Assembly: GCA_016789705.1 (NCBI GenBank)
Contig: JAEUQR010000106.1
Location: 1-64,000 of the forward strand
Direction of reading: 5' to 3'
DNA: 64,000 bases
Source of the DNA: Acidobacteriota bacterium
GTDB lineage: Bacteria > Acidobacteriota > Vicinamibacteria > Vicinamibacterales > UBA2999
How positions within the stretch are numbered: position 1 is the first letter of the stretch; each line of letters starts with the position of its first letter. This document shows positions 942 to 62,525 of the stretch, one piece after another. Below the pieces are notes generated by a model. The model was not told where the DNA came from, did not search any database, and saw only the letters and a program-made list of their open reading frames with translations. Made by a program: the position numbers and the translations under genes.

Positions 942-955
942 GGGGCGATCTTAGT

Positions 956-8595: not shown

Positions 8596-9455
8596 TGGCT
8601 CATCAGCTCGTCGTTGATGCCGAGCGCCTGTTCGAAGCGCTGGCGGGCCTGCGCGGCGCGCGCCAGCACGGCCACGGGCGCGGCCGCCGGGGCGAGTTCG
8701 AACGTCCAGGGCCCGGCATAGCCCACTTTGAGGAAGGCCAGCAGCGTGCGGGCCCAGTCGATCGAACCGTCGTAGGGCACGAGATGGTCGTCGCGCGAGC
8801 CGCGGTTGTCGTTCACGTGCGTGGCGATGATGTGGCCCGACGCCGCTTCGATCGCATCCACCGGATCGCCGAGCAGGCGGGCGTGGCCGGTGTCGAGGCA
8901 GATGCCGGCCACCGGCCAGTCGGTGGCGTCCTCGATGAGCGCCACGAGCGCGTCGGCCGTGGACAGGCGGTTCGTCTGCACTTCGAGCGCCACCTGCACG
9001 CCGCGTTCACCGGCGTACGGCATCAGCACGTCGAGGCTGCTTCGGGCCGCGGCGGCGTCGTTGTCGTCGCCGCCGGCAACATGTTCGGGCAGGCCGACGT
9101 GCACGACGAGCGTGTCGGCGCGCAGCGCGCGCGCCAGGTCGATCGCGGCCCGGGTCTCCTCGACCGCCGCCGAACGGGCCTCGGCATTCCGGGCGGCGAG
9201 TGACAGCGTGCCGTGCCAGCGGCCGTCGTAGGCGAGCGCCGTCGGGGCATGCACGGCGGCCAGCGTGAGCCGCGTGTCGTCGAGCCACTCGCCCAGCCGC
9301 TGCACGGCGGCCGGGTCGGCGTAGTCGACGTGCGACTTCAGCGCGAAGAGCTCGACCGCGTCGAAGCCATGCGCCGCAATCTCCACCAGGTGCTCGCGGT
9401 CGAGGCGTGCCTGGTGGAAGAGATACGTGGATACGCTGAAGCGGGCGGCGCTCAC
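8592..9455 (-). CDS. Sugar phosphate isomerase/epimerase-like TIM-barrel protein
   Basis: 287 residues from GTG 9455. Belongs to the xylose-isomerase-like TIM barrel (AP_endonuc_2) family: opening [22 protein letters not shown], a middle VVHVGLPEH, an Glu-containing strand [22 protein letters not shown] and a histidine-containing [24 protein letters not shown]. The conserved E, D, H and late histidine fit metal coordination. The substrate cannot be read from sequence. The gene starts inside the last codons of the AmgK-like kinase (GTGA overlap) and ends in an ATGA overlap with asnS, so it belongs to a cell-wall sugar module by position only. Confidence 0.85.
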
Positions 9456-10486
9456 GATGGGCCGGAATTGTACCGCAGCTCGTCCACCAGCCCGCCGAGC
9501 AGCTCGGCCAGGCGGCCGAACCGTGGGTCGCGGTGCAGCGTGCGCTTCACGTAGGTCAGTGTCCGCGGCACGTACTGCATGTAGACCGGATTCCCGCGTG
9601 TGGTCGTCTGGTAGCCGAAAGTGCCGAGCGCTTTCAGGTTGCGCTGCAGCGCCATCAGGTCGAAGCGCCGCCGGAACTCGGCGCCCGCCTCCGGCGTGGC
9701 CGCCGTGCCGCGCGAGAGCGCGTAGTAGTAGTCGATGAGGTCGTCGACCGCGGCGTCGGGGAGATCGACGTAGGAATCGCGCAGCAGCGACACCAGGTCG
9801 TAGGTGTCTGGGCCCATGCGCGCATCCTGGAAATCGATCACGTGCAGGATGCCGTCGTGCCACATCAGGTTGCGGCTGTGATAGTCGCGGTGACACAGCA
9901 CGCGGGGGTCACCCGCGAGTTCGTCCACGATCGCGGCCCACTCGGCGCGCAGCGCCTCGCGGATCGGCTCTTCGGGCACGGCGCCGCGGTACGCGAGCAG
10001 GAAGTGCCGCACGAAGAACTCGAGCTCCCAGGTGAGCTTCTCGTGGTCGAACGCCACGCCGAAGGGCGGGTAGGCCGCCGACGCGAGCGCCGCGCCGCGT
10101 TGCTGGATGCGCACGATGAGACCCACGGCCTCGCGGTAGCGTGCGGCACGTTCGGTGGACGAGGCGCCGCCGAGGTGCGCCTGCAGCGTCACGTCGCCGA
10201 GATCCTGCTGCGCCAGGATGCCGAGCGCGTCATCGTGGTGCAGCAGCGCCGGGATCGGCACCGGCATGGCGGCGAAGAGCTCGGCGACGCGGACGAAGGG
10301 CGCGGTGGCGTAGTCGATCGGACCGGCGTGCACGCTGAGCACGATGGACGGCCGGCCGCGCAACAGCACGCGCACGTAGCGCCGGTCGGAGGCGTCGCCG
10401 GTGAGCAGCACCGTGCGCTGCACGCCGGGCGTCAGGGCGTGAAGGTCGAGGTACGCGGCGACGCGCTGGTCGAGATCGGCGGACAT
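9452..10486 (-). CDS. amgK: AmgK-like aminoglycoside-phosphotransferase-fold sugar kinase
   Basis: 344 residues. Kinase motifs: HRDYHSRN as catalytic loop and VIDFQDARMGPDTYDL as metal-binding segment, both very close to the N-acetylmuramate/N-acetylglucosamine anomeric kinase AmgK. In Pseudomonas AmgK phosphorylates recycled MurNAc and the neighbouring MurU activates it to UDP-MurNAc, bypassing de novo MurA synthesis. Here a MurU-like gene is directly upstream (11 bp gap), which supports the same role. The start ATG at 10486 follows that gene closely. The substrate remains an inference from pair and motif. Confidence 0.82.
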   Translation of the reverse strand: MSADLDQRVAAYLDLHALTPGVQRTVLLTGDASDRRYVRVLLRGRPSIVLSVHAGPIDYATAPFVRVAELFAAMPVPIPALLHHDDALGILAQQDLGDVTLQAHLGGASSTERAARYREAVGLIVRIQQRGAALASAAYPPFGVAFDHEKLTWELEFFVRHFLLAYRGAVPEEPIREALRAEWAAIVDELAGDPRVLCHRDYHSRNLMWHDGILHVIDFQDARMGPDTYDLVSLLRDSYVDLPDAAVDDLIDYYYALSRGTAATPEAGAEFRRRFDLMALQRNLKALGTFGYQTTTRGNPVYMQYVPRTLTYVKRTLHRDPRFGRLAELLGGLVDELRYNSGPS

Positions 10487-10497
10487 CGCGGCCGATT

Positions 10498-11478
10498 CTA
10501 CCTGTGGAGGTCGAGCGGTGCGATCCAGAGATCGCCGTCCGCCTCGCCACCTGCGCCGGCCGGCACGAGCGCGCGCGGCACGACGGCGACGCGCGCGAGC
10601 CGGCGCCCTGGCGGCACGGTCACGCCGTCGGCGAGCACCGAGTCGCGCACGACGGCGCCGGCGCCGACGGTGACGTCGTTCCAGATGGCCGTGCCCGTGA
10701 CGTCGGCGTCCCCGGCAATCATCACGTCGTCGCCACGGTCGAGGGCGCGACGCTCGGCGGTGGCCACAGCGCGCACGGTGGCGAGATAGTCGGCCGGCGT
10801 GCCGATGTCGTGGAACGCCACCGCGCTCGGCCACACCCGCACGCTGCCGGGATCGCGGGCGATGAGCGCCGGATACAGGGCCTTCAGCGTCTCGGACGGC
10901 GCATCCGGGGAGGCGGCCGCGAACGCCGCCCGTTCGGCCACCTGCACGCCGATGAAGTGGACGTGGCGATGATGGGCGTGCGCCGGTGCCGGGGCGTGTC
11001 CGGCGCGCGTGACGCCGGCGAATCGGCCGTCCTCGTTCACGGCAAGCGCGTTGTAGCCGGGCCGCGCGTCGGGCGTCGATGCCATGGTCACGAGGGGCTG
11101 ATGCCGGGCATGCGCGGCGGCCAGGGCCGCCAGGTCGAGGTCGGTGAGGGTGTCGCCGTTCACGATGAACGCCCGGTCGCAGCCCAGCAACTCGAAGGCG
11201 CGCCGCGGTCCGCCCCCCGAGCCGAGGACCACCGGTTCCCAGGAGTAGCGGACCTCCACGTCGAGGTCGCGGCCGTGCCCGACGAGGCCCGTGATGCTGG
11301 CCGGCAGGTGGTGCAGATTGACGACGACCTTGCGCACACCGGCGGCCGCGAGCCAGCGGATCTGCCGGCGGATGATGGGTTCCCCGGCCACGGGCAGCGC
11401 CGCTTTCGCGCGCACCCACGACAGCGGTGCGAGGCGCGTGCCGTATCCGGCGGCCAGCAGGATGGCGGCGTCGATCAC
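10498..11478 (-). CDS. murU: MurU-like sugar-1-phosphate nucleotidyltransferase
   Basis: 326 residues. N-terminal nucleotidyltransferase fold with LAAGYGTRLAPL, a lysine in AKAALPVAG, and FIVNGDTLTDLDL carrying the metal-binding Asp. The C-terminal 60 residues (NDVTVGAGAVVRDSVLADG) are hexapeptide-like and are not present in the roughly 220-residue Pseudomonas MurU; this layout resembles mannose-1-phosphate guanylyltransferases. The neighbour is an AmgK-like kinase, favouring activation of MurNAc-1-phosphate or GlcNAc-1-phosphate in peptidoglycan recycling. The ATG overlaps the stop of the CYTH gene by 4 bp. Activity on another sugar phosphate cannot be excluded. Confidence 0.75.
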   Translation of the reverse strand: MIDAAILLAAGYGTRLAPLSWVRAKAALPVAGEPIIRRQIRWLAAAGVRKVVVNLHHLPASITGLVGHGRDLDVEVRYSWEPVVLGSGGGPRRAFELLGCDRAFIVNGDTLTDLDLAALAAAHARHQPLVTMASTPDARPGYNALAVNEDGRFAGVTRAGHAPAPAHAHHRHVHFIGVQVAERAAFAAASPDAPSETLKALYPALIARDPGSVRVWPSAVAFHDIGTPADYLATVRAVATAERRALDRGDDVMIAGDADVTGTAIWNDVTVGAGAVVRDSVLADGVTVPPGRRLARVAVVPRALVPAGAGGEADGDLWIAPLDLHR

Positions 11479-13607: not shown

Positions 13608-14789
13608 CTACACCAGCGGCACCACGGCGGTCTGCCGCGGGCCCGTCACCTCGGGGCCGGCCGGGCCCCAGGCGATATTAATTTCCGTGCGCACTCCGAA
13701 CGTCGGGAAATACAGGCCGGGTTCAATCGTGAAACCCGTGCCCGGGAGCAGCCGGCGTTCGTCCTTCGTTTCGTAGTCATCGAGGTGCGCGCCATTGCCG
13801 TGCACCTCTTCTCCGAGGCTGTGTCCCGTACGATGCAGGATGGCGGCGCCGAAGCCCCGCTGCTGCAGCACGGCGCGCGCCGCGGCATCGGCTTCATAGC
13901 CGCGCACCTCGCGCCCGGCCGCGGCCGCGGATGTCACGAGGTCGACGGCGGCGTCACGGGCGTCGCGAATGGCCGTGAAGGCCGCCTCGACCGGCGCCGG
14001 AATGGCAGGTCCGGTGAAGCCCATCCAGCTGATGTCGGCGTAGACGGCGCGCGGCGTCGTCTGCTTGCCCCAGAGATCGAGCAGCACCACTTCGTTCGGG
14101 CCGATCGGCCGCGCGGCGGTGGCCGTGGGCTGGTAGTGCGGGTCGCCGGCGTTTTCCTGGGAGGCGACGATCGGCGCCGAGTCGGTGACCAGGCCTTCCT
14201 CGCCGAACCACGTCATCATCGCCGACTGGATGTCGTATTCGGTGGTGGGCACGCGGTCGCGCAGGCGCCGGGCGATGAGCTCGAAGGCGCGGTCCTTGAT
14301 GCGATACAGCGCCTCGGAGGCGGCGCGATGCGTGGTCAGGCCGCCCTCGGGCCAGATGGCCTCGAACTGCTGCACGAGGTCGCCCGAAGAGACGACGGCC
14401 GCGCCGCAGTCGCGCACGAGTTCGATCGTGCCGGCATCGACGCGCGAGACGTACGGTATGGCGGCGCGCGGCGAATACTCCATGGCCACCGTGCCGCAGC
14501 CGGCGAGGAGCTGCCGGAGGCCGGCCTCGAGCTCCACTCGGCCGGCGTATTCGAAGGTGCGGCCAGGCAGGTGCGCCAGCGTGCGCTTCTCGATCTTGTG
14601 CACGAGGGCCCGCGGCTCACCCTCGGCCGGCACCAGGTAGAACCAGCGCCGGGTGGTCATGTGCCCGGTGGTGGCGAGGCCGGCGACCCGCCGCGACACG
14701 GGGTTCGAGCCGTGGAAATCGTAGAGCAGCCAGCCATCGAGCCGGGCCGCGCGGAGGGCCGCCTGTACGGCGGGTACGTCGAGGGACAT
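13608..14789 (-). CDS. M24 family metallopeptidase (Xaa-Pro aminopeptidase-like)
   Basis: 393 residues. The creatinase-type N-terminal domain is followed by the pita-bread catalytic domain, whose five metal ligands are visible: Asp in LLDLWG, Asp in YADISW, His in HRTGHSLG, Glu in TIEPGLY and Glu in RTEINI. These enzymes remove N-terminal residues in front of proline. No signal peptide is seen, so it is probably cytoplasmic. It heads the minus-strand run leading to htrA (12 bp gap). A TATACT hexamer is 10 nt before the ATG, with no Shine-Dalgarno between them. Confidence 0.9.
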   Translation of the reverse strand: MSLDVPAVQAALRAARLDGWLLYDFHGSNPVSRRVAGLATTGHMTTRRWFYLVPAEGEPRALVHKIEKRTLAHLPGRTFEYAGRVELEAGLRQLLAGCGTVAMEYSPRAAIPYVSRVDAGTIELVRDCGAAVVSSGDLVQQFEAIWPEGGLTTHRAASEALYRIKDRAFELIARRLRDRVPTTEYDIQSAMMTWFGEEGLVTDSAPIVASQENAGDPHYQPTATAARPIGPNEVVLLDLWGKQTTPRAVYADISWMGFTGPAIPAPVEAAFTAIRDARDAAVDLVTSAAAAGREVRGYEADAAARAVLQQRGFGAAILHRTGHSLGEEVHGNGAHLDDYETKDERRLLPGTGFTIEPGLYFPTFGVRTEINIAWGPAGPEVTGPRQTAVVPLV

Positions 14790-14799
14790 ACGAATTCTG

Positions 14800-14805
14800 A
14801 GTATA
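14800..14805 (-). promoter_or_regulatory. -10-like hexamer TATACT before the M24 gene
   Basis: On the minus strand TATACT lies 10 nt before the M24 ATG. Only about 3 nt of leader would remain, with no ribosome-binding site. A -35 element is not clear. Part of a recurring pattern in this window. Confidence 0.5.
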
Positions 14806-17729: not shown

Positions 17730-18191
17730 TCACATCTCGCCGTTCCAGTCTTCCGGTTCGGCCGTGGCCGAGCGGAAGACCTCCAGGTGCCACTTACCGC
17801 CGCCCCAGGGCTCGATGACCTCGGTGGCCACCACGTCCACGAGCAGCTCGGCGAAGGTGCGGCCCTCGGGGTCGCCCTCCAGATGGTAGGCCGGATCGTC
17901 CCAGGAGAAGTTGGGATAGAGCGTCATCGTGAGGAAGAGGTCGTAGCCGTCGTCCACCACGATGAGCTGGCCGCAGGGCGGCTTCTGGGTCGAGTGGTAG
18001 ATCAGGTACTTCTCGGCGCTGTGCGCGCGGATGTAGCGCTTGAGGACGAACTCCCGCGCCACGATCTCCTCGACCGCGATCTTCTTGTCCCAGCAATCGG
18101 CGCAGTAGCGCTCCTCGCCCTTGGGTTCGGTGACGTCTTTGGCGCCGCAGAGCGCGCAGTGCACCTTGTTGCTCGTGGTCTTGCGGGACAT
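17730..18191 (-). CDS. Small zinc-ribbon-like protein of unknown function
   Basis: 153 residues. The N-terminus holds two CxxC pairs (CALC at about 12-15 and CADC at about 29-32) that could bind zinc like a ribbon. The rest is a compact alpha/beta region including YLIYHSTQKPPCGQLIVVDDGYDLFL and FAELLVDVVATEVI. I do not recognise a named family. It lies between glgP (47 bp gap) and the small secreted protein on the same strand. The ATG at 18191 is preceded by TACAAT with 6 nt between and no Shine-Dalgarno, suggesting its own leaderless transcript. Confidence 0.7.
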   Translation of the reverse strand: MSRKTTSNKVHCALCGAKDVTEPKGEERYCADCWDKKIAVEEIVAREFVLKRYIRAHSAEKYLIYHSTQKPPCGQLIVVDDGYDLFLTMTLYPNFSWDDPAYHLEGDPEGRTFAELLVDVVATEVIEPWGGGKWHLEVFRSATAEPEDWNGEM

Positions 18192-18197
18192 CAGACC

Positions 18198-18203
18198 ATT
18201 GTA
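18198..18203 (-). promoter_or_regulatory. -10-like hexamer TACAAT 6 nt before a start codon
   Basis: Minus-strand TACAAT ends 6 nt before the ATG of the zinc-ribbon gene, placing the expected transcription start on the start codon. The leader would be absent. The cleanest example of the leaderless pattern in this window. Confidence 0.6.
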
Positions 18204-20478: not shown

Positions 20479-21456
20479 TCAGCGCGCATCGGGACAGGCA
20501 CCGACGAGCAGGGCGAAGCGGGAGAGATCGATGTTCCCGCCCGAGACGACCGCCACCACCTTGCCGGCGCCGGCGCGGCCTGACACTGCCGCGGCGGCCG
20601 CGCAGGCGGCGGCCCCCTCGATGATGACGTGCAGCCGGTCGGCCACAAGGGCCATGGCGCTGGCCGCCTCGTCGAGCGTGACGACGAGCGACGCGGCGAC
20701 CGTGGGCTGCAGCAGCGGCCACATCGAGGGCAGCACCGACTTGCCGCCGGCGCCGTCGACGAACGACGCGCGCCAGGCCTCGAAGCGCTGCGGGGCGCCC
20801 GCCGCCAGGGACTGCGCCAGCGGGGCGGCGGTCTCCGGTTCGGCCGCGACGACGCGGACGTCGGGGCGGCGCGCGTGCATCACCGCGCCGATGCCCGAGA
20901 GCAGGCCGCCGCCGCCGATGGCCGCCACGACGGTGGAAACGTCAGGAAGGTCCTCGAGGATCTCGAGGCCGGCCGTGGCGTTGCCCGCGATGAACGCATC
21001 GTCGTCGAACGGATGCACGAAGTGGCCGTGCATCCGATCCGAACGGTGCGTCTCCACCGTGCGCCAGCATTCGTCGTAGGTGGCGCGCACGACCGTGGCG
21101 CCGAGGCGTTCGATGGCCCGCACCTTGGTCTCGGGCGCCGTGTCCATCACAAGCACCGAACACGGCGCGCCCACGGTGCGCGCGGCGAACGCCACGCCCT
21201 GCGCCGCGTTGCCGGCGCTCACCGTCCAGACACCATCCGCGAGTTCGGCCGGCGTCAACTGCCGGACGGCGTTCATCGCGCCGCGCAGCTTGAACGAGCC
21301 GATGGGCTGCAGGCACTCGAGCTTGAGGTAGATCTCGACGGGCTCGCCGGCCGGCGTCGAGACGGGCACGTGCAGGCGCACGAGCGGCGTGCGCACGACG
21401 GCGGAGTAGATGACGGCCGCGGCGTCCTCCACCGCGCGCATCGGAATGTGACGCAT
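20479..21456 (-). CDS. Threonine/serine dehydratase-like PLP enzyme
   Basis: 325 residues of fold-type II. Lys56 in GSFKLRGAMNAV is the Schiff-base residue; SAGNAAQGVA binds the substrate carboxylate; GGGGLLSG is the phosphate-binding loop; a Ser/Gly-rich VVSGGNIDLSRF closes the core. It lacks the C-terminal regulatory ACT-like domain of biosynthetic IlvA, as in catabolic threonine dehydratases and serine racemases. It would deaminate threonine or serine to a 2-oxo acid, or racemise serine. SAGNAAQG, where many dehydratases have SSGNHAQG, is a mild variation. Confidence 0.85.
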   Translation of the reverse strand: MRHIPMRAVEDAAAVIYSAVVRTPLVRLHVPVSTPAGEPVEIYLKLECLQPIGSFKLRGAMNAVRQLTPAELADGVWTVSAGNAAQGVAFAARTVGAPCSVLVMDTAPETKVRAIERLGATVVRATYDECWRTVETHRSDRMHGHFVHPFDDDAFIAGNATAGLEILEDLPDVSTVVAAIGGGGLLSGIGAVMHARRPDVRVVAAEPETAAPLAQSLAAGAPQRFEAWRASFVDGAGGKSVLPSMWPLLQPTVAASLVVTLDEAASAMALVADRLHVIIEGAAACAAAAAVSGRAGAGKVVAVVSGGNIDLSRFALLVGACPDAR

Positions 21457-21510
21457 GAGTGCGCGATGGTACCACGGGAGGCGTGCCGGTCCGGTGACGC
21501 GTCCGCCGCG

Positions 21511-21516
21511 TAGAAT
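21511..21516 (+). promoter_or_regulatory. -10-like TAGAAT upstream of the P1 peptidase gene
   Basis: TAGAAT is 20 nt before the ATG, and a GGAGG-like ribosome-binding site (GGCGGAGGACG) lies between, so this gene has a conventional short leader. No clear -35. Confidence 0.4.
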
Positions 21517-21536
21517 GCGGACGGCGGAGGACGAGG

Positions 21537-22685
21537 ATGACGGCAGTGCGACTGATGGTGTGCGGACTCGTGGCGTGCGGCGTGAGCGTGCTGGCGCAGA
21601 CGCCGGAGGGGCGTCCGCGGGCGCGCGACCTCGGACTCGCGCCGGGCGTCTTCGCGCCCGGCCCGCTCAACGCCATCACCGACGTGGACGGCGTGCGGGT
21701 GGGCCACGTGACGCTCTCGACCGGCGATACGATTCGCACCGGGGTCACGGCCATCGTGCCGCATGGCGGCAATGTCTTCCAGGACAAGGTGCCGGGCGCG
21801 GTGTTCGTCGGCAACGCCTTCGGCAAGCTCGCCGGTTCGACCCAGGTGGACGAACTCGGGACCATCGAAACGCCGATCGTGCTCACGAACACGCTGGGCG
21901 TGGGCGCGGCTATGGAGGGCGTGGTGCGCTGGACGATCGCCCAGGCCGGTAACGCCGGTGTGCGGTCGGTCAACGCGCTCGTGGGGGAGACGAACGACAG
22001 CGGGCTGAACGACATCCGCGCCCTCGCCGTGCGGCCCGACCACGTGGTCGAGGCCATCGGCGCGGCCCGCGGCGGTGCGGTGGCGGAAGGCAGCGTGGGC
22101 GCCGGCACGGGCACGCAGGCCTTCGGCTGGAAGGGCGGCATCGGCACCTCGTCGCGGCGGCTCACCGCGGCGCTCGGCGGCTACACCGTCGGCGTGCTCG
22201 TGCAGAGCAACTACGGCGGCGTGCTCACGATGGGTGGTGCGCCGGTGGGCCGCGAACTGGGCCGCTACGCCTATGCGCCGAACCCGCGCGGCAACGACGC
22301 CGGCGACGGCTCGTGCATGATCGTCGTCGCCACCGATGCGCCGCTCGACGCGCGCGACCTGAAGCGCCTCGCGGCGCGGGCCGTCTTCGGTCTCGCGCGC
22401 ACGGGCAGTTCCTACAGCAACGGCAGCGGCGATTTCGCGATTGCCTTCTCGACGCACCCGTCACTGCGCGTGACCTTCGGCGCCGAAGCGCCGGTCACGC
22501 GCATGGTGCTGCCGACCGACGGCGTGTCGCCGCTCTTCCAGGCGGCGCTCGAAGCCACGGAAGAAGCCGTCTACAACTCGCTGCTGCGGGCAACGACCAC
22601 GACCGGTCGCGGCACGACCGTCGAGGCGCTGCCCGTGGACCGCGTGCGCGCGATTCTGCAGAAGTACAACCTCGGCGGCCGTTAG
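21537..22685 (+). CDS. P1 family peptidase (DmpA/BapA type aminopeptidase), secreted
   Basis: 382 residues. A signal peptide (LMVCGLVACGVSVLAQ) is followed by the DmpA fold: ARDLGLAPGVFAPGPLNAIT, DGVRVGHVTL, NTLGVGAAMEG, GTGTQAFGWKGGIGTSSR, and GNDAGDGSCMIVV. The Gly258-Ser259 bond is the expected self-processing site, leaving Ser259 as an N-terminal nucleophile. Members act on N-terminal D- or beta-amino acid residues or small peptides. Good ribosome-binding site GGAGG 8 nt before the ATG. Followed convergently by a PLP enzyme with 12 bp between stops. Confidence 0.9.
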   Translation: MTAVRLMVCGLVACGVSVLAQTPEGRPRARDLGLAPGVFAPGPLNAITDVDGVRVGHVTLSTGDTIRTGVTAIVPHGGNVFQDKVPGAVFVGNAFGKLAGSTQVDELGTIETPIVLTNTLGVGAAMEGVVRWTIAQAGNAGVRSVNALVGETNDSGLNDIRALAVRPDHVVEAIGAARGGAVAEGSVGAGTGTQAFGWKGGIGTSSRRLTAALGGYTVGVLVQSNYGGVLTMGGAPVGRELGRYAYAPNPRGNDAGDGSCMIVVATDAPLDARDLKRLAARAVFGLARTGSSYSNGSGDFAIAFSTHPSLRVTFGAEAPVTRMVLPTDGVSPLFQAALEATEEAVYNSLLRATTTTGRGTTVEALPVDRVRAILQKYNLGGR

Positions 22686-25356: not shown

Positions 25357-25435
25357 CCCTGTGTATACCGTACGGGGACGGCGGAGTGTTCAGAAACGGA
25401 CCACGGTGTGCCGGTCACCGTGCCGTTTCAGCACA

Positions 25436-25696: not shown

Positions 25697-25765
25697 GACG
25701 TCGATCCACCGCAAGGCATGTGCCACGGGCCGGGGGCGCCGGGCCGGCGTGTTATCGTCCGGGCG

Positions 25766-26389
25766 ATGACTCCCATCGTGATTGGTGTGGCCGGGGGCTC
25801 CGGATCGGGCAAGTCGACGGTCGTGCGGCGCATCGTCGACAGCCTGGGCGACGACCAGGTGAGCGTGCTCGAGCACGATCGCTACTACCGCGACCGCAAC
25901 GACCTGCGTCTCGAAGAACGCGCCGCCCTCAACTACGACCACCCCGATTCACTCGAAACCGACCTGCTCGTACGGCACGTGCACGCGCTCCGGACGGGCG
26001 AGCCCGTCGAAGCGCCGGTCTACGATTTCGCGCGCCACGCGCGCACCGCGGTCACACATCGCGTGGTGCCGCGCCGCGCCCTCATCGTCGAAGGCATTCT
26101 GATCTTCGCCGACCCGTCGCTGCGCCCGCTGATGGACATCAAGGTGTTCGTCGACACCGACGACGACACGCGGGTGATTCGCCGGCTGCAGCGCGATGTG
26201 GCCGAACGCGGCCGCACGATGGAATCGGTGATCGAGCAGTACCTCGGCACGGTGAAGCCGATGCACCTCGAGTTCGTGGAGCCGAGCAAGCGGTACGCCG
26301 ACATCATCGTGCCGGTGGGCGGGCACAATGCCGTGGCGGTCGATCTGCTGCTGTCGCTCATCCGCAGCGTGACCGGCGCCGGACGCTGA
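25766..26389 (+). CDS. udk: Uridine kinase
   Basis: 207 residues. The P-loop GVAGGSGSGKST is at residues 7-18, followed by LEHDRYYRD with the catalytic aspartate, NYDHPDSLETDLL, YDFARHART, and VEGILIFADPSLR. It phosphorylates uridine and cytidine to UMP and CMP. TATCGT is 7 nt before the ATG and no ribosome-binding site is evident. It converges with leuD (6 bp between stops). Pyrimidine salvage partners deoA and cdd are at 57-59 kb. Confidence 0.93.
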   Translation: MTPIVIGVAGGSGSGKSTVVRRIVDSLGDDQVSVLEHDRYYRDRNDLRLEERAALNYDHPDSLETDLLVRHVHALRTGEPVEAPVYDFARHARTAVTHRVVPRRALIVEGILIFADPSLRPLMDIKVFVDTDDDTRVIRRLQRDVAERGRTMESVIEQYLGTVKPMHLEFVEPSKRYADIIVPVGGHNAVAVDLLLSLIRSVTGAGR

Positions 26390-30711: not shown

Positions 30712-30740
30712 ATGTCACACGAGTTTCCATGATAAGTCAA
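30712..30740 (-). promoter_or_regulatory. leuA promoter
   Basis: On the minus strand TTGACT (30740-30735), exactly 17 bp, then TGACAT (30717-30712). Only 7 nt separate the -10 element from the leuA ATG, so the transcript should begin at or next to the start codon. No leucine-rich leader peptide fits in this space, so classical leu attenuation is absent. Confidence 0.65.
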
Positions 30741-30778: not shown

Positions 30779-30809
30779 TTGAACGATTGTTCTGAACACT
30801 TGTTACAAT
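30779..30809 (+). promoter_or_regulatory. Candidate lysR promoter
   Basis: TTGAAC (30779-30784), 19-bp spacer, TACAAT (30804-30809). The regulator ATG is 8 nt further on with no ribosome-binding site. The spacer is longer than ideal. Confidence 0.5.
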
Positions 30810-30817
30810 GGATAGTT

Positions 30818-31732
30818 ATGGATATACATCAGCTGGAGACCTTCCTGGCCGTGGTGGAAGAAGGCAGCTTCTCCGGGGCCGCCAAAGCCCTCGGCCGGAC
30901 ACAGCCGGCCGTGAGCCAGGTCATCGGCCGTCTCGAAGACGAGCTCGGGCAGCGCCTCTTCGAGCGGCCGGCGCGCCGCGGGGGCATGACGGACGCCGGC
31001 AAGGCGCTCGTCGAATACGCGCAGCGCCTCATCACGGTGCGCGAGCAGGCGCGGGTGGCCCTCGAAGACGTGCGCGCGCTGCGGGCCGGGCGTCTGGCCA
31101 TCGCCGCCAACGAGCTCACCTGTCTCTATCTGCTCCCGGTGCTCGATCGGTTCCGCCGGCTCTATCCCGGTGTGTCGGTGACCGTGCAGCGTTCGCTCGC
31201 GAGCCGCGTGCCGGCGAGCGTCCTCGATTACGCCGTGGACCTCGGCGTCACCACCTACCGGCCGGCCGAGCCCGGCCTGCGCGCGATCGTCGTCTACCGC
31301 GACCAGCTCGTGTTCGTGGTGCCGCCGTCGCATCCGCTGGCACGGCGTCCGGAGGTCAGCATCACCATGCTCGGCTCCGAGTCGTTCGTCGCCCACCACG
31401 TGGCCTCGCCGTTCCGCGACCGCGTGGTCGAAGCGTTCCGCACGCACCGCGTCGCGCTGCAGATGCCGGTCGAGATGCCCACCATCGACGCCATCAAGCG
31501 CTTCGTCGCGCTCGGTCACGGCGTCGCACTGCTGCCAGGCATCAGTGTGGAGGACGAACTGCGGCGCGGCGAACTCGTGCGCGTGCCGGTGCCGGAGCTG
31601 GCGATGGAGCGGCCGCTGCGGCTGGTGCTGCGCCGCGAAGGCGAGCTGTCTCACGCCGTGCGCGCGTTCCTGTCGGTGGCCGAGCACCACGCGACGACCG
31701 CGAAGGGCGCTTACTCGTTCGTGAACGAATAG
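30818..31732 (+). CDS. LysR-family transcriptional regulator, probable leucine-operon regulator
   Basis: 304 residues from ATG 30818. N-terminal winged helix-turn-helix: DIHQLETFLAVVEEGSFSGA, then AKALGRTQPAVSQVIGRLED with the usual A..L..TQPAVS core; substrate-binding domain from about residue 90. It is divergent to leuABCD with a 113-bp shared spacer, the common arrangement for LysR regulators and their targets (as with LeuO or IlvR-like proteins). The effector is unknown. The start is chosen because DIHQLETFL is the conserved opening. Confidence 0.9.
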   Translation: MDIHQLETFLAVVEEGSFSGAAKALGRTQPAVSQVIGRLEDELGQRLFERPARRGGMTDAGKALVEYAQRLITVREQARVALEDVRALRAGRLAIAANELTCLYLLPVLDRFRRLYPGVSVTVQRSLASRVPASVLDYAVDLGVTTYRPAEPGLRAIVVYRDQLVFVVPPSHPLARRPEVSITMLGSESFVAHHVASPFRDRVVEAFRTHRVALQMPVEMPTIDAIKRFVALGHGVALLPGISVEDELRRGELVRVPVPELAMERPLRLVLRREGELSHAVRAFLSVAEHHATTAKGAYSFVNE

Positions 31733-56784: not shown

Positions 56785-56812
56785 ATTATAGACGTCAACC
56801 GGCTGCTATACT
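56785..56812. promoter_or_regulatory. Divergent promoter elements between the HEAT gene and deoA
   Basis: Plus strand: extended -10 TGC-TATACT (56804-56812), 13 nt before the deoA ATG, so only a few nt of leader. Minus strand: exact TATAAT (56790-56785), about 44 nt before the HEAT-gene ATG. Neither has a clear -35. Confidence 0.5.
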
Positions 56813-59388: not shown

Positions 59389-59394
59389 TAGAAT
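59389..59394 (+). promoter_or_regulatory. -10-like TAGAAT 6 nt before mtnA
   Basis: TAGAAT, 6 nt, ATG. No ribosome-binding site between. No clear -35. Would give a leaderless mtnA transcript within the salvage cluster. Confidence 0.45.
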
Positions 59395-59400
59395 GTAAGC

Positions 59401-60438
59401 ATGCTCCCGACGATCGCCTGGGATGGCGACGACATCCTGATGATCGACCAGCGCAAGCTGCCTGGTCGCGAGGTCTACGTGCGTTGCAGGACCGGCAACG
59501 AGGTGGCGAAGGCCATCACGACGATGGTCATCCGCGGCGCTCCCGCCATCGGCGTGGCAGCGGCCATGGGTCTCGCGCTCGGCGCCCGCCGCAGCACCGC
59601 CTCCGGCACCAAGCAGTTCGCCGTCGACTTCCAGCGGCTGGCCGATTCGCTCGCCGCCACCCGGCCCACCGCGGTCAACCTGTTCTGGGCCATCGAGCGC
59701 ATGAAGCAGGCGCTCGCCACCGGCGTGCAGGCGGGAGAGGGCGTGGTGGAACTCGTCGCGCGGCTGCGCCAGGAGGCCGACCGCATCCACGACGACGACC
59801 TCGAGAGCTGCCGCGCGATTGGCCGCCACGGCGCCCCGCTCGTGCCCGATGACGCGCGCATCCTCACGCACTGCAACGCCGGGGCGCTGGCGACCGCCGG
59901 CTACGGCACCGCCCTCGGCGTCGTGCGCGGCGCGGTCGATGCCGGCAAACGTGTGGCCGTCTACGCGGATGAAACGCGGCCATTCCTGCAGGGCGCGCGC
60001 CTGACGGCGTGGGAACTCGTCAGGGACGGCATTCCCACCACCGTCATCACCGACAACATGGCGGCCGCGATCATGGCGCGCGAACGGGTCGATCTGGTCG
60101 TCGTCGGGGCCGACCGCATCGCCGCGAACGGCGATGCCGCCAACAAGATCGGCACCTACGGGCTCGCCCTCGCGGCCCACGCGCATGGCATTCCGTTCTA
60201 CGTCGCGGCGCCGTGGTCCACGATCGATCTGGCGACGCCGACCGGCGCGGAAATTCCGATCGAGGAGCGGAACGCGAAGGAGGTCACCCACATGGCCGGC
60301 ACGCAGGTGACGCCCGACGGCGCGTCGGTGCGCAATCCCTCGTTCGACGTGACGCCGCACCGCTACATCACGGCCATCATCACCGAACGCGGCATCCTGC
60401 GCCCGCCGTACGTCGAGGCGCTGGCGGACGCGCGGTGA
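59401..60438 (+). CDS. mtnA: S-methyl-5-thioribose-1-phosphate isomerase
   Basis: 345 residues. MtnA motifs: [35 protein letters not shown] with the catalytic Cys, [20 protein letters not shown] with the catalytic Asp, and [20 protein letters not shown] at the end. It converts methylthioribose-1-phosphate to methylthioribulose-1-phosphate in methionine salvage. The other mtn genes are not in the window; the PNP next to it looks inosine/guanosine-specific rather than MTA-specific. Its stop overlaps tsaD (GTGA). Confidence 0.95.
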
Positions 60439-61498: not shown

Positions 61499-61942
61499 AT
61501 GGCGCGCGATTATCCCGAGGCGCCGGTTGCGGCGGTGGGCGGCGTGGTCATCGACGACGGCGCCGTGCTGCTCGTGCGGCGGGCGTTTCCGCCGCGGCAG
61601 GGGGAGTGGTCGCTGCCCGGCGGCCGGCTGGAACTCGGCGAGTCGCTCGCCGATGGCGTCGCGCGCGAGGTGCGCGAGGAAACGGGGCTCGACGTCGACG
61701 TCGGCGTGGTCGTGGATGTCTTCGACCGTGTGCATCGCGACGAGGCCGGCCGCGTTCGCTATCACTTCGTCATCGTGGATTTCCTCTGCCGGCCCCGTGG
61801 CGGTACGCTCGCCGCTGGTGATGACGCGGCCGAGGTCCGCTGGGTGCCGCGTGCCGATGTCGCCGCGCTCGGCGTCAACGCCTACGCCGTCGGCGTCATC
61901 GAGCGCGCTTTTCGCCTGCACGCCGGCCCGCAGGCCGGGTAG
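61499..61942 (+). CDS. Nudix hydrolase
   Basis: 147 residues. The Nudix box GGRLELGESLADGVAREVRE runs on to EETGLDVDV and matches Gx5Ex7REUxEExGU. The opening VAAVGGVVIDDGAVLLVRRAFPP is typical of ADP-ribose or (d)NTP pyrophosphohydrolases of this size; substrate unknown. Short distance to tsaD suggests co-transcription. The next gene starts 10 bp after its stop. Confidence 0.88.
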   Translation: MARDYPEAPVAAVGGVVIDDGAVLLVRRAFPPRQGEWSLPGGRLELGESLADGVAREVREETGLDVDVGVVVDVFDRVHRDEAGRVRYHFVIVDFLCRPRGGTLAAGDDAAEVRWVPRADVAALGVNAYAVGVIERAFRLHAGPQAG

Positions 61943-61952
61943 GATGTCGGCC

Positions 61953-62525
61953 ATGGCTCTGGACCGCGCGGCTGCCTGGCAGCTCCTCACCGAATGGACC
62001 GCGAGCGACAGCCTGCGCAAACACGCGCTGGCCGTCGAGGCCGCCGTGCGCGGCTATGCCCGGCTCGCCGGCGAGAACGAAGACGACTGGGGCGTCGTGG
62101 CGCTGCTGCACGACTTCGACTACGAACGCTTCCCGACGCTCGGTGACCACCCGAACAAGGGCTGCGAGCATCTGCGGAGCCTCGGGTATCCGGAGTGGGT
62201 GATGCGGGCCATCCTGGCGCATGCCTGGGAAATCACCGGCGTCGATGCCGAAACGCCGCTGGAGAAGGCGCTCGTCGCCTGCGACGAAATGGCCGGCTTC
62301 GTCACCGCCGCCTCGCTCGTGCGTCCGAGCCGCAGCGTGCTCGACCTCGAGGCCGCCTCGGTCATCAAGCGCATGAAGGACAAGGCGTTCGCCCGCGCCG
62401 TGCCGCGCGAGCACCTGAAGAAGGGCGCCGAGCTCGTGGGGCTGCCCCTCGACCAGCACGTCACCAACGTCATCACGTTCATGCGCGAGAAGGCCGACGA
62501 CCTCGGCCTGCGCGGCACTCTGTAG
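61953..62525 (+). CDS. HD domain phosphohydrolase
   Basis: 190 residues from ATG 61953; ATG 61944 is an alternative. HD pattern: LRKHALAVEAAVRGYA for the first His, LLHDFDYERFP for the HD pair, then IRDH-like HAWEITGVDAETPLEKAL and CDEMAGFVTAASLV with a late Asp. Members hydrolyse phosphate esters of nucleotides. Substrate unknown. The last gene of the salvage/tsaD run; 46 bp to the ABC gene. Confidence 0.85.
   Translation: MALDRAAAWQLLTEWTASDSLRKHALAVEAAVRGYARLAGENEDDWGVVALLHDFDYERFPTLGDHPNKGCEHLRSLGYPEWVMRAILAHAWEITGVDAETPLEKALVACDEMAGFVTAASLVRPSRSVLDLEAASVIKRMKDKAFARAVPREHLKKGAELVGLPLDQHVTNVITFMREKADDLGLRGTL

Follow-up and report, generated by a model that had tools for sequence, protein, structure and literature searches.

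Leaderless genes with a -10-like motif immediately before the start codon have been described in several bacterial phyla. TA-led genes were found in 207 of 953 bacterial genomes, and leaderless genes were predicted in all three Acidobacteria genomes of that study, at a mean of 13.3% of genes with a range of 9.7–19.4 (Zheng et al., 2011; PMC3160421). Therefore, leaderless genes are not new for acidobacteria. In Deinococcus radiodurans, a -10 motif at a spacing of 6–7 bp was experimentally found to drive leaderless genes (PMC12340547). In Mycobacterium tuberculosis, about one quarter of the genes with a primary transcription start site (TSS) are leaderless, and a C precedes the purine at which transcription starts (PMC3898074). 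A search of open-licence papers found no TSS map for any Acidobacteria.

The window, i.e. the whole 64,000-nt stretch of DNA analysed here, contains a series of genes with -10-like hexamers a few nucleotides before the start codon (Table 1). A preliminary description had listed eight of them, stating hexamer and spacing for each and the absence of a Shine-Dalgarno (SD) sequence. Reading the sequence upstream of the called genes reproduced all eight hexamers and spacings, and no suitably spaced SD precedes any of the eight genes. TANNNT fits six of the eight hexamers, the exceptions being those of leuA and the TolB-like gene, and at least three further cases were found in the window beyond the listed eight (rbfA, the kinase gene and the HD-domain gene). 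The genes were identified as mtnA (TIGR00512), udk (TIGR00235), leuA, and genes for a LysR regulator, a TolB-like beta-propeller protein, a PLP-dependent dehydratase and an M24 peptidase. The S58 peptidase gene, which is divergent from the dehydratase gene, has a short leader with an SD. In addition, the kinase and HD-domain genes carry leaderless-type promoters inside apparent operons, 10–11 nt behind the upstream gene, which suggests that their boxes are internal promoters.

Table 1. Start-proximal hexamers and related features of the window. Gap, number of nucleotides between hexamer and start codon.
Feature	Hexamer	Positions	Strand	Remarks
Zinc-ribbon-like gene box	TACAAT	18198..18203	-	gap 6 to ATG 18189-18191; spacer GGTCTG; no SD between
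Zinc-ribbon-like orphan protein		17730..18191	-	153 aa; predicted leaderless
mtnA box	TAGAAT	59389..59394	+	gap 6 to ATG at 59401
M24 peptidase gene (13608-14789) box	TATACT	14800..14805	-	gap 10
udk box	TATCGT	25753..25758	+	gap 7 to ATG at 25766
lysR box	TACAAT	30804..30809	+	gap 8 to ATG at 30818
PLP-dependent dehydratase gene (20479-21456) box	TACCAT	21466..21471	-	gap 9
TolB-like gene, overlapping candidates	TACGGT, TATACA	25362..25372	-	gap 10 and gap 5, respectively
leuA candidate	TGACAT	30712..30717	-	gap 7; judged unlikely
rbfA (501-941) box	TAAGAT	948..953	-	gap 6; directly after TTCCCTG heptamer array
Kinase gene (9452-10486) box	TAGAAT	10495..10500	-	gap 8; within gene cluster
HD-domain gene (61953-62525) box	TAGGAT	61940..61945	+	gap 7
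Pyrimidine phosphorylase gene box	TATACT	56807..56812	+	gap 13; short-leader relative of the same design
S58 peptidase gene (ORF 21537-22685), contrast	TAGAAT	21511..21539	+	TAGAAT, then GGAGG, then ATG 21537

The position of TANNNT relative to start codons was counted in the genome (5.03 Mb, 199 contigs), of which 1.01 Mb was analysed at gene level. Genes were called using a three-periodic Markov model, with coding score and type of codon as the only criteria for picking starts; as no upstream signal entered the calls, upstream motifs were unable to influence the choice of start. First genes (n = 445) were those whose upstream neighbour was either divergently oriented or separated by 60 nt or more, and operon-internal genes (n = 244) those lying at most 25 nt behind a same-strand neighbour. 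Among the first genes, TANNNT occurred 3, 30, 24, 14, 11, 9 and 2 times at gaps of 5, 6, 7, 8, 9, 10 and 11 nt, respectively, with about 3 per position further upstream. The genome-wide count at start-proximal distance, which the preliminary description had proposed as a check, was strongly positive: 87 of the 445 first genes (19.6%) carried the box at gap 6–10, compared with a mean of 9.3 (s.d. 3.3, maximum 20) in 200 dinucleotide shuffles. The corresponding number for operon-internal genes was 13 of 244 (5.3%). Over all called genes, the box was present in 111 of 782 against roughly 19 expected, indicating that about 12% of genes use it. Moreover, TANNNT was a clear outlier among the 64 XYNNNZ patterns, with a 6.4-fold enrichment compared with 2.5-fold for the runner-up and 0.32-fold for TANNNC. 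An annotation-free count over the whole genome gave 273 occurrences of TANNNT-N6-ATG versus 106 of TANNNT-N15-ATG, which has the same codon phase. An EM mixture model reached a log-likelihood of 514 on the real data versus about 55 on shuffled data; its weights were not taken as estimates, since shuffled data yielded similar weights.

The box and the SD tended to exclude each other. An SD core was found in 5 of the 87 first genes with TANNNT versus 99 of the other 358 (odds ratio 0.16, p = 3.7e-6). The preliminary description had also assigned GGAGG boxes to genes inside operons, and this holds as a tendency, with an SD core in 41% of operon-internal genes versus 23% of first genes. The 16S gene was not found in the genome assembly; the SD enrichment suggests a working anti-SD.

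The composition of the box was TAN(A/G/C)(A/C)T. No TTGACA-like -35 signal was detected at 15–19 bp, where the best-match mean was 2.70 versus 2.42–2.65 at control spacings. With respect to the TGn of an extended -10 promoter, G occupied -14 in 61% of cases, compared with 45% for TANNNT elsewhere upstream (p = 0.006), and T occupied -15 in only 21%. Furthermore, 67% of the genes with gap 6–7 had C at -1, compared with 45% of operon genes (p = 0.002; p = 0.03 against SD-led genes). Both the -1 C and the -14 G are modest initiation signatures. In genes with gap 8–10, the seventh base showed no clear preference for an initiating purine. Regions 2.4, 3.0 and 4.2 of RpoD look canonical when compared with Escherichia coli.

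These features very probably reflect a sigma-70-type promoter with TANNNT as its -10 element and no need for a detectable -35, giving leaderless or near-leaderless mRNA; where transcription starts and how ribosomes are recruited are both predictions. RNA polymerase would start some 7 nt past the box. At gap 6–7, the first transcribed base would be the start codon's A or G, gap 6 corresponding to the first base of the codon, and at gap 8–10 it would lie within 1–4 nt of the codon. The resulting mRNA, leaderless or nearly so and lacking an SD, would be translated by recognition of its 5'-terminal start codon, and operon-internal genes and a minority of first genes would use SD boxes instead. The earlier proposal that these mRNAs begin at the start codon itself fits the genes with gap 6–7, whereas gaps of 8–10 may leave leaders of 1–4 nt.

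The conservation of the box was assessed in orthologues. TANNNT at gap 5–10 was kept in 28/30 zinc-ribbon, 24/29 M24 and 26/37 mtnA orthologues across the order, compared with about one or fewer per gene expected from control windows. In 19 aligned zinc-ribbon upstream regions, the T, A, A and T of TANNAT and the ATG were the only invariant columns, and the hexamer itself varied among orthologues as TACAAT, TAGAAT, TAAGAT, TATAAT and TATCAT. Box-to-start spacing drifts by several nucleotides between orthologues; the pyrimidine phosphorylase gene, for instance, has gaps of 8–13 across seven genomes, window included. The HD-domain gene has TAGGAT-7 in locus L171 and TATGAT-7 in locus L093. The udk arrangement was kept in the genus and in one family member and was absent in distant relatives, so order-wide conservation holds for three of the four genes tested. 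Outside the order, the box geometry was present in 7/9 acidobacterial mtnA loci, mostly of Terriglobia, compared with 5/59 loci in the remaining groups, mostly other phyla, of which 31/59 had an SD. The upstream sequences compared here indicate that the geometry is evolutionarily conserved across the order while the rest of the upstream region turns over, which supports a function of the box. The motif is locked in position, depleted where SD boxes occur and conserved order-wide.

Some individual assignments of the preliminary description proved weaker. The same-genus relative G001 lacks the leuA candidate TGACAT, and an alternative TATCAT/TACGAT at 30729-30734, with a gap of 24, is conserved there. 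For these two reasons leuA more likely has a leader of about 18 nt, and its listing as leaderless was probably wrong. The TolB-like gene, with its two overlapping box candidates, is ambiguous; TACGGTATACACAGGG is conserved in two genus members. In the single relative available, the lysR box TACAAT is replaced by a GATAAT-type sequence.

Related genomes were examined in the same manner. Of 14 genomes sampled from the order, 13 had an excess of TANNNT-N6-ATG at p < 0.05, and the proportion of first genes with the peak was 14.1% in the same-genus genome, 9.8% in G037 and 9.6% in G054. The ratio of N6 to same-phase N15 was 1.2–3.2 within the order and about 1.0 in families f23, f34 and f18. The broad leaderless use proposed earlier for this lineage is supported by the genome-wide TANNNT peak together with the conservation across the order. 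In a survey of 149 genomes of the phylum, the excess was patchy, and families in which it was about 2-fold or higher include f53, f52, f62, f38 and f10; one genome (G149) was high against the reversed pattern and not against the spacing control. A Nonomuraea actinobacterial sample, too small to serve as a positive control, gave 5 cases versus 2.6 expected.

Three other explanations of the peak were considered. A+T enrichment before starts, or upstream stop codons, could create TANNNT by chance, and the upstream regions do have a slightly altered composition. Such an artefact would have to survive the dinucleotide shuffles, to spare TANNNC, which also contains TA and is depleted, and to act mostly on divergent genes, which have no stop codon upstream. 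Moreover, a GC-rich Azospirillum plasmid processed through the same pipeline as a proteobacterial control showed no peak, with 3 cases where 2.1 were expected. This explanation is refuted by the shuffles and by the conservation of the box in orthologues, and its residual probability is negligible. Miscalled starts, with the box acting as the -10 of a normal leader and translation beginning at a downstream codon with an SD, are very improbable. Calling starts from coding potential alone leaves some room for such errors; however, a downstream in-frame ATG or GTG with an SD within 25 codons was found in 3.5% of box genes versus 8.9% of SD genes, the peak is tied to the start position as called, and the zinc-ribbon orthologues conserve residue 1 and the N-terminus.

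The remaining explanation accepts the promoter and differs in the 5' end: much of the set might consist of mRNAs with leaders of 1–5 nt, translated from an internal AUG. The spread of gaps from 6 to 10, with 13 reached at the pyrimidine phosphorylase gene, points in this direction, as does the variation of spacing by several nucleotides among orthologues. The mode at gap 6–7, in contrast, is the exact leaderless spacing, and the frequency of C at -1 in genes with this gap resembles M. tuberculosis transcription starts. On this evidence, short leaders in much of the set are unlikely, although far less so than miscalled starts, and the -10-only promoter yielding leaderless or near-leaderless mRNA is the preferred reading.

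The zinc-ribbon-like protein was characterised separately. It matched no Pfam or NCBIfam family above the cut-off, with DZR_2 sub-threshold (E = 0.013), and its predicted fold (mediocre, pLDDT 69.5) matched no solved structure. The protein, which has a CxxC...CxxC arrangement at the N-terminus, was found at 74–100% identity in 38/40 genomes of the order and was absent from all 92 sampled genomes of the phylum outside it. By these sequence comparisons it is a highly conserved, order-specific orphan.

Heptameric tandem repeats often stop right at a leaderless-type -10 (9/115 versus 7/554 other first genes, p = 4e-4). These repeats have period 7 only and are all intergenic; they were seen in the window at about 955-986 before rbfA, at L077 and L006, and upstream of mtnA in L042, L044, L049, L062, L068 and L097. 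They resemble the heptamer repeats of cyanobacteria. At six further mtnA loci, mostly of Nitrospira (L123, L130, L133, L140, L144 and L148), a conserved TACAAGAT/TAGAAGAT-like box lies shortly before the ATG with no SD; these loci may represent a further lineage with near-leaderless mRNAs, in which the -10 differs slightly.

We tentatively suggest that leaderless expression might be the ancestral mode in this acidobacterial order, retained by a particular group of genes, some with housekeeping functions and some specific to the order (mtnA, M24 and the zinc-ribbon orphan). It would operate through -10-only promoters, leaving the upstream DNA free to turn over and to be colonised by heptameric repeats, and leaderless mtnA might already have been present in the ancestor shared by two acidobacterial classes. 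Acidobacteria abound in soil, and most have not been cultured. If 10–20% of first genes are leaderless, gene finders tuned to the SD would misplace starts here, heterologous expression would need an added leader, and mtnA, the M24 gene and the zinc-ribbon gene would be conserved test cases for the long-term retention of leaderless expression.

The prediction that about one fifth of first genes are leaderless is well supported. The arrangement is real and conserved, and its kind has been predicted before in acidobacteria and is familiar from other bacteria. Like the M. tuberculosis system (PMC3898074), it combines a TANNNT -10, no conserved -35 and a C before the start; that system belongs to a different phylum, and leaderless status was assigned there by TSS mapping and here from sequence. 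With Deinococcus-Thermus (PMC12340547) it shares TANNNT, the 6–7 bp spacing and the presence of SD genes in the same genome, the leaderless expression here being predicted. About one third of D. radiodurans genes are of this type, and promoter function was tested there by mutation, whereas the promoters described here are predicted from sequence. A further match is with the Acidobacteria of Zheng et al. (2011; PMC3160421), in which TANNNT likewise lies about 12 bp before the start; here, once the background is subtracted, about 12% of the called genes have it. Unlike that study of three acidobacterial genomes, the present analysis covers what is probably another class and includes conservation at the level of orthologues and the contrast between operon positions.
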